From contig NZ_LMVP01000013.1 of NCBI RefSeq assembly GCF_002287235.1, forward strand, positions 1-50,859: 50,859 nucleotides of DNA, in the 5' to 3' direction. Origin of the DNA: Methanosarcina spelaei. Lineage in GTDB: Archaea > Halobacteriota > Methanosarcinia > Methanosarcinales > Methanosarcinaceae. Positions 13,771-14,307 of this stretch are shown piece after piece (position 1 is the stretch's first letter; each line of letters begins with the position of its first letter). The notes beneath the pieces were generated by a model. The model saw only the letters and a program-made list of their open reading frames with translations, ran no database searches and had not been told where the DNA came from. The position numbers were made by a program, and so were the translations under genes.

Positions 13771-13780
13771 TTTTATATAT
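13771..13780 (+). promoter_or_regulatory. TATA box (box A) of the putative RNA gene
   Basis: TTTTATATAT lies about 26-30 bases before the point where sequence changes from AT-rich to structured and G+C-rich, the spacing expected for an archaeal TATA box and a transcription start near 13800-13806. Confidence 0.55.
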
Positions 13781-13800
13781 TATTATGTATATAATATGGC

Positions 13801-13985
13801 TTCGTCGCATTGTATAGGTCCTTGCATGAGGTAATGGAAAATCCTGACTGTGAGTGTACAGACAACCCCAATGCGGTACATTGATAGTGTGATACTGCCC
13901 TGCACGAGGGTAACTGAAAGTGACTGCGGAAAACCAGAGGATGAGCTTTCGGAGTTAGTGCGCCAGGGCTACAGCACTATTTTCC
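13801..13985 (+). ncRNA. Putative structured non-coding RNA of unknown family
   Basis: About 185 bases, clearly less AT-rich than its surroundings, with no ORF. Two folded domains can be drawn. Domain 1 is closed by CGCATTG (13806-13812) with CAATGCG (13869-13875). Domain 2 is closed by GCCCTG (13897-13902) with CAGGGC (13964-13969) and continues CAC/GTG, TAACT/AGTTA (13911-13915 with 13953-13957) and GAAAG/CTTTC (13916-13920 with 13946-13950), leaving a GAGGG bulge, a CGC bulge and a 25-base loop. Both domains share a motif like CCTTGCATGAGG / CCCTGCACGAGGG. A TATA box lies before it and T-rich sequence after it. ACA follows the closing stem of domain 2, so a guide RNA (H/ACA-like) is one possibility. 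It does not match RNase P or SRP RNA motifs that I know. Confidence 0.55.
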
Positions 13986-14035
13986 CATTCTTTTAAAAAC
14001 TTTTTTCCAGAAATTACTTGAACAATATCTAGTTT

Positions 14036-14190
14036 GAATTGTTACTTGTTGAGTTATTATTTGTTGAATTATTACCTACTTGTATTATTACCCACTTGTA
14101 TTATTACCTACTTGTATTATTACCTACTTGTATTATTGCCTATTTGAATTATTACTTATTTGAATATTAATTGTTTTAATATTACTTGTT
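14036..14190. repeat. Tandem repeat, period 16 bp
   Basis: Five close copies of TATTACCTACTTGTAT, flanked on both sides by decaying copies (TTATTTGTTGAA, TTACTTATTTGAA). Located between the putative RNA gene and the DUF167 gene. Confidence 0.8.
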
Positions 14191-14307
14191 TGAAACTTCA
14201 TTTGCTTGAAATTCTAAGCTTATGTTCTTCACTGTCTCCGATTATTTTTTTACTTTAAAAGGTCAATCCGTCATTGATTTATATGATCCTCCAGAAAGGT
14301 AAAAGAT

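Follow-up and report, generated by a model that had tools for sequence, protein, structure and literature searches.

Locus and gene limits

The window, which is the whole 50,859-nucleotide stretch of Methanosarcina spelaei DNA analysed here, carries at positions 13798-13985 of its forward strand a real, strongly conserved and stand-alone non-coding RNA gene of Methanosarcina, with the parts listed in Table 1. Across 29 Methanosarcina sequences profiled in 10-nt blocks, there is a sharp rise in conservation at about 13804 and a drop at 13980, with an identity per block of 0.84-1.00 over 13801-13980 and of 0.47 immediately beyond. A separate conservation island of 0.88 in the same sequences is the TATA box, which is 88% conserved among Methanosarcina against 50-77% for the non-RNA sequence around it, and transcription would be expected to start at about 13797-13802. 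The 3' end shows no hairpin terminator-like site, and its T-rich sequence is a probable region of oligo-T termination. ARAGORN found no tRNA or tmRNA at the locus, and a literature search returned no description of the two-hairpin RNA in Methanosarcina.

Table 1. Features of the RNA gene and its promoter in the window
Feature	Position	Strand	Sequence, pairing or basis
Whole RNA gene, assigned as a two-hairpin H/ACA guide sRNA of the HgcG/Pab40 family (hairpins II + III)	13798..13985	+	homologues, covariation, covariance searches, RF00064 matches of homologues
TATA box	13771..13780	+	TTTTATATAT; sequence and conservation
Domain 1, H/ACA hairpin II (Haloferax HP1-like), lower stem to ACA box	13806..13880	+	
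Domain 1 lower stem, 5' strand	13806..13812	+	pairs with 13869-13875
Domain 1 5' guide	13813..13820	+	UAUAGGUC; target scan; near-invariant across the order
Domain 1 upper stem with K-turn	13821..13861	+	CUUGCAU-GA / UGU-GA-GUGUACAG
Domain 1 3' guide	13862..13868	+	ACAACCC; target scan
Domain 1 lower stem, 3' strand	13869..13875	+	pairs with 13806-13812
Domain 1 ACA (ANA) box	13878..13880	+	2 nt after lower stem
Outer stem around domain 2, 5' strand	13883..13890	+	pairs with 13974-13981
Domain 2, H/ACA hairpin III (Haloferax HP2-like), lower stem to ACA box	13897..13973	+	
Domain 2 lower stem	13897-13902/13964-13969	+	GCCCTG/CAGGGC, 6 bp, then T-ACA
Domain 2 5' guide	13906..13911	+	GAGGGU; target scan
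Domain 2 upper stem with K-turn	13912..13956	+	AACUGAAAGU-GA / GAU-GA-GCUUUC-GG-AGUU
Domain 2 3' guide	13954..13959	+	GUUAGU; target scan
Domain 2 ACA (ANA) box	13971..13973	+	1 nt after lower stem
Outer stem around domain 2, 3' strand	13974..13981	+	pairs with 13883-13890
T-rich 3' end, probable oligo-T termination region	13981..14007	+	sequence

The initial annotation had proposed a structured RNA gene with its own promoter, and the features on which it drew are all present in the sequence: a TATA box, two domains closed by perfect stems of 7 and 6 bp, a T-rich end, GAGGG on one side of domain 2 with CGC on the other, and an ACA after the domain 2 stem. Its statement that the locus holds no ORF was nearly right, as the overlapping reading frames of 48 aa (+) and 40 aa (-) are short and mechanical, and coding is unlikely because the alignment shows indels and paired substitutions. 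The compensatory base changes in homologues on which it had staked its proposal are extensive in both domains.

A DNA search recovered the gene in 53 of 60 related Methanosarcinales genomes and in 43 of the 44 that are of good quality, nearly always as one copy. One genome of family f7 (G060) carries the whole two-hairpin RNA twice, on contigs C9 and C24. A pattern search of genomes placed the RNA in Methanosarcina, Methanolobus, Methanosalsum, Candidatus Methanoperedens, ANME-2 archaea, Methanosaeta and Methanocellales, and also returned a minority of unrelated bacteria, which were taken as chance matches. A DUF167 gene adjoins the RNA in families f1 and f3; this neighbour was not found in the other families, where the RNA is still present, and since the neighbour varies while the RNA stays, the RNA would be an independent gene acting in trans. 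Directly behind the RNA gene, between it and DUF167, lies a 16-bp AT-rich tandem repeat array with about 8-10 copies of TTGAATTATTACCTAY (14034-14194).

Structure of the two domains

Archaeal H/ACA hairpins are built on a common plan of a lower stem, a two-sided guide pocket, an upper stem with a K-turn, and an ANA box, and domains 1 and 2 are each a hairpin of this kind. The minimum free energy of the RNA does not stand out from shuffled sequence (z = +0.09), so the structure cannot be argued from energy and the evidence is covariation, drawn from structure alignments of 23 diverse sequences for domain 1 (A1) and 25 for domain 2 (A2) that were tested against the named structure. Covariation is found in the lower and upper stems of both domains, in agreement with the stem, pocket, stem plan. 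In both, the ANA box lies 1-2 nt 3' of the lower stem and keeps A-N-A with C, T or A in the middle, so that it varies only in the permitted way (ACA, ATA, AAA), and both contain a K-turn with tandem sheared G-A pairs (CAY-GA / UNU-GA in domain 1, GU-GA / GAU-GA in domain 2) whose G-A columns are invariant or nearly so. The guide-RNA role that had been hinted at from the ACA after domain 2 was the right one; domain 1 has an ACA of its own, and both domains carry K-turns. Productive H/ACA folds are limited to 10/5/9 and 10/6/9 (PMC4652768); counted from the sequence, the stacked layers number 9-11, depending on bulges and mismatches, and the rule fits only if a C-A mismatch is taken as the layer that closes the upper stem.

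In domain 1, 87.6% of alignment cells are paired, a value that drops to 26-45% when the partners are slid, and double-change cells number 45 where shuffles average 19, with no shuffle as high. The closing stem (CGCATTG/CAATGCG, 7 bp) is paired in 97.5% of cells with compensatory changes in four of its seven pairs, and the upper stem, paired as CU-UGCAU/GUGUA-C-AG, also has compensatory changes among its pairs. The K-turn is formed by sheared G-A pairs of 13828-13829 with 13852-13853 and a 3-nt bulge at 13849-13851, and its GA and UGA columns are invariant in the 23 sequences, as are both A columns of the ANA box, which reads ATA or AAA in some relatives.

Domain 2 is paired in 83.0% of cells, with double changes at 18 pairs and 88 double-change cells against 28 in shuffles. 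Its upper stem covaries around invariant GAC and UGA columns, the GUUAG of the 3' guide is invariant in 25 sequences, and the K-turn (13922-13923 / 13940-13944) has sheared G-A pairs of 13922-13923 with 13943-13944. Just above the K-turn, the C-stem has a tandem mismatch, 13926-13927 / 13936-13937 (A2 columns 51-52 versus 64-65), that is conserved in nearly all sequences. An outer stem around domain 2, absent from the features first listed for this locus, shows compensatory change at five of its eight pairs and occurs at full length mainly in Methanosarcinaceae. A repeated CCTTGCATGAGG-like motif had also been pointed out (13820-13831, and as CCCTGCACGAGG at 13898-13909). As a conserved repeat it does not persist in other families, and it was rejected as a structural repeat, as it falls in the upper stem and K-turn of domain 1 and in the lower stem and guide of domain 2.

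Relationship to the HgcG/Pab40 family

A scan of the window at the Rfam gathering thresholds gave no match, and two permissive Rfam scans of the locus (E up to 10) returned chance matches only, with RF00064 absent. Covariance models built from Methanosarcinales sequences, R1 for domain 1 and R2 for domain 2, score 91 and 95.5 bits on the window domains, and in separate searches over 197 genomes of the phylum their matches lie next to each other with the order kept, both in methanogen groups and in high-GC genomes, which are taken to be haloarchaea from their composition. Two high-GC genomes of the phylum have the guide RNA some 1-2 kb downstream of a 23S rRNA gene (G226:C1 912418-916353 and G245:C1 28744-33979).

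Fourteen distant R1/R2 loci were scanned against Rfam, where RF00064, the family known as Pab40 or HgcG (PMC4652768), has a gathering score of 77 bits. One locus, L154, exceeds it at 98.4 bits, and others match below it (L151 at 65.1, L147 at 35.1 and L158 at 31.7 bits); in L154, L147 and L158 the RF00064 and R1/R2 matches cover the same bases. Methanosarcinales relatives score 20-31 bits, below the gathering score, among them L042 (31.5 bits, E = 4e-5) and L049 (28.8 bits, E = 3e-4), both of which are in register with RF00064 across hairpins II and III. The window RNA aligns with the RF00064-matching homologues, and because the window copy itself gives no RF00064 match, family membership rests on these intermediate sequences. 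The initial annotation had recognised no RNA family here, which agrees with the scan of the window and not with the matches of its relatives; its structured RNA gene with a promoter-like TATA box stands, and its new family gives way to the RF00064 match of L154. By these alignments the window RNA is best read as a diverged HgcG/Pab40-family H/ACA guide that the Rfam thresholds miss, not as a new family.

Hairpin I is absent before 13806 in the window, where the TATA box is found instead. L042, of family f3, aligns over the full three-hairpin RF00064 model (1-276), hairpin I included, and hairpin I appears to have been lost in Methanosarcinaceae. Upstream of domain 1, several f3 relatives (L036, L041-L043, L045) have hairpin I-like sequence with its own ACA (..GGGGCACA), and the same relatives have no TATA box at the usual place.

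Predicted targets in 23S rRNA

In an H/ACA pocket the 3' guide pairs upstream of the target UN and the 5' guide downstream. Unrestricted complementarity of the RNA to 16S and 23S rRNA gave many chance runs of 9-12 bp, and the target scan was therefore kept to pocket geometry (E. coli numbering throughout). Domain 1 has its two best rRNA targets at U2555 in the A-loop (6+6 bp), where AUAGGU pairs with GCCUAU after U2555-C2556 and ACAACC with GGUUGU before U2555, and at U2586 (4+5 bp), where GGUC pairs with GACC after U2586-A2587 and AACCC with GGGUU before U2586; these registers are offset from each other by two nucleotides. Domain 2 has its best 23S target at U1917 (6+4 bp), where the 5' guide GAGGGU pairs with ACCCUC of helix 69 and the 3' guide offers UAGU before U1917 or GUUA before U1915, which is the best target (9+4 bp) of the domain 2 pocket in the relative L038. 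The distance from target to ANA box is expected to be 14-16 nt and is 14 nt for U2586, 16 for U2555 and 15 for U1917; for U1915 it is 17 nt in the window and 14-16 in other families. All three target sequences are present in the 23S rRNA of the window genome itself. In one genus the domain 1 5' guide reads AAAGUUC, not AUAGGUC (L033, G035), with the 23S targets unchanged, and its guide function may have been lost or shifted.

The best score of domain 1 is reached in 2 of 200 dinucleotide-shuffled rRNA sets, and overall in 1-3 of 200 per pocket, so complementarity alone is only suggestive. A 16S site, SSU 1267, outscores the 23S targets for domain 2 of the window (9+4 bp) and is taken as chance because its duplex uses the CAC/GTG stem bases and its register lies 17 nt from the ACA box. 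What makes the putative assignments convincing, in our analysis, is their agreement with known modification sites. In Haloferax volcanii HP1 is a candidate guide for Psi2621 (E. coli 2586) and HP2 for Psi1956/1958 (E. coli 1915/1917) (PMC2584109), and the Haloferax guides are listed as experimentally validated (PMC4652768). In Archaeoglobus fulgidus Af4.2 guides L2601 and Af4.3 can guide L1970 (PMC4652768). The spacing of L1970, L2601 and L2639 (631, 38) equals that of U1915, U2555 and U2593 in the several genomes measured, and because L1970 is U1915 and both spacings agree, L2601 appears by position to correspond to U2555 and L2639 to U2593.

Alternative explanations

Two other identities for the locus have to be weighed. 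The RNA could belong to a genuinely new structured family, riboswitch-like or a regulatory sRNA, that merely resembles H/ACA hairpins, as might be argued from the lack of an Rfam match in the window itself, the extra covarying outer stem and the unusually conserved upper-stem bases near the pocket. We regard this as very improbable, given that both K-turns and both ANA boxes stand in the proper register, that homologues score against the HgcG H/ACA model (one of them beyond the gathering score) and that the pockets fit known H/ACA target sites, and a cis-regulatory version is further opposed by the persistence of the RNA while adjoining genes change. Still more remote is a small protein gene or a cis-acting leader of the downstream DUF167 gene: compensatory substitutions and indels ignore the reading frame of the 48-codon ORF that overlaps the RNA, and the DUF167 gene found downstream in f1 and f3 genomes is missing beside the RNA in other families and in the window is separated from the T-rich end by AT-rich sequence of more than 300 nt. 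On the grounds of synteny, a role in cis-regulation of DUF167 was rejected. We hold with high confidence that a TATA box at the locus drives the gene of an archaeal H/ACA guide sRNA that belongs to the HgcG/Pab40 family and has been reduced to its hairpins II and III.

Within this H/ACA explanation, and compatible with it, there is the further question of how many sites hairpin 1 serves. It may modify U2586 only, as in haloarchaea, with the A-loop complementarity a side effect of the conserved structure; haloarchaea are known to have U2586 as the target (PMC2584109), the AACC and GUC guide core is common to nearly all lineages, and the 5/9 spacing to the ACA box fits. We consider this possible but doubtful, as the U2555 duplex is the longer (12 versus 9 bp), methanogens keep the A of AUAGGU and the C of ACAACC with little or no variation though U2586 needs neither, both are lost in the high-GC, haloarchaea-like relatives with identical 23S target sequence, and L2601 of A. 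fulgidus appears to be U2555. Hairpin 1 of methanogens carries AUAGGUC/ACAACC, which matches both U2555 and U2586, and that of the high-GC relatives UAGUC/CGAACCC, which matches the U2586 core only. The 23S sequence around both sites is identical in the two groups, so it is the guide that changed and not the target. Of the 23S pseudouridines of Haloarcula, reported to number only three, none is at U2555 (PMC2584109). We give about even chances to one methanogen hairpin serving both U2586 and U2555, with the A-loop match lost in the high-GC haloarchaea-like lineages. The A-loop U2555 adjoins the site that binds the CCA end of A-site tRNA, and if both targets are used, pseudouridylation of the peptidyl transferase region would have switched between lineages through the guide alone.

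Proposed function and significance

Once transcribed, each hairpin of the H/ACA guide would assemble with a single set of L7Ae (at the K-turn), Cbf5, Nop10 and Gar1; gene presence was checked for two of the likely partners, and the genome encodes a Cbf5-type DKCLD domain protein and Nop10. In the assembled particle the pocket strands would pair with 23S rRNA on both sides of the target U, which Cbf5 would isomerise to pseudouridine. Hairpin 1 is predicted to guide modification of U2555 in the A-loop (GGUUGU-U-C-GCCUAU) and also of U2586 near the peptidyl transferase centre (GGGUU-U-A-GACC), and hairpin 2 that of U1917, perhaps also U1915, in helix 69. This would explain a conserved RNA gene of Methanosarcina and its order and tie it to HgcG/Pab40 despite the failure of the Rfam model there. 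It also yields site-level predictions of ribosomal pseudouridines for a genetically tractable methanogen, and a natural comparison between a guide with one target, haloarchaea-like, and a guide with two, in methanogens.

Comparison with known guide RNAs

Among the closest known systems, HgcG/Pab40 (Pf7 of P. furiosus) is a three-hairpin RNA; the Methanosarcinales RNA aligns with its hairpins II and III and has in common with them the GGUCC..AACCC pocket of hairpin II and the GAUGA K-turn, GUUA and ACA of hairpin III. Unlike HgcG/Pab40, the window copy lacks hairpin I, is too diverged for cmscan and has its TATA box directly before hairpin II. The Haloferax volcanii HP1 and HP2 (PMC2584109; Hvo1/Hvo2 in PMC4652768) are likewise two hairpins, homologous to stems II and III of Pf7 with hairpin I absent (PMC2584109). 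The haloarchaeal hairpins are reportedly split by a long spacer, whereas in the window a gap of 16 nt separates the domain 1 ACA from the domain 2 lower stem, and the A-loop complementarity that methanogens keep is missing from the HP1-like hairpins of the high-GC relatives. Afu4 of A. fulgidus has a third hairpin, Af4.1, with target S1167, and resembles the window RNA through published targets and spacing, with Af4.2 directed to L2601, which would be U2555 by spacing, and Af4.3 to L1970, which is U1915 (PMC4652768).
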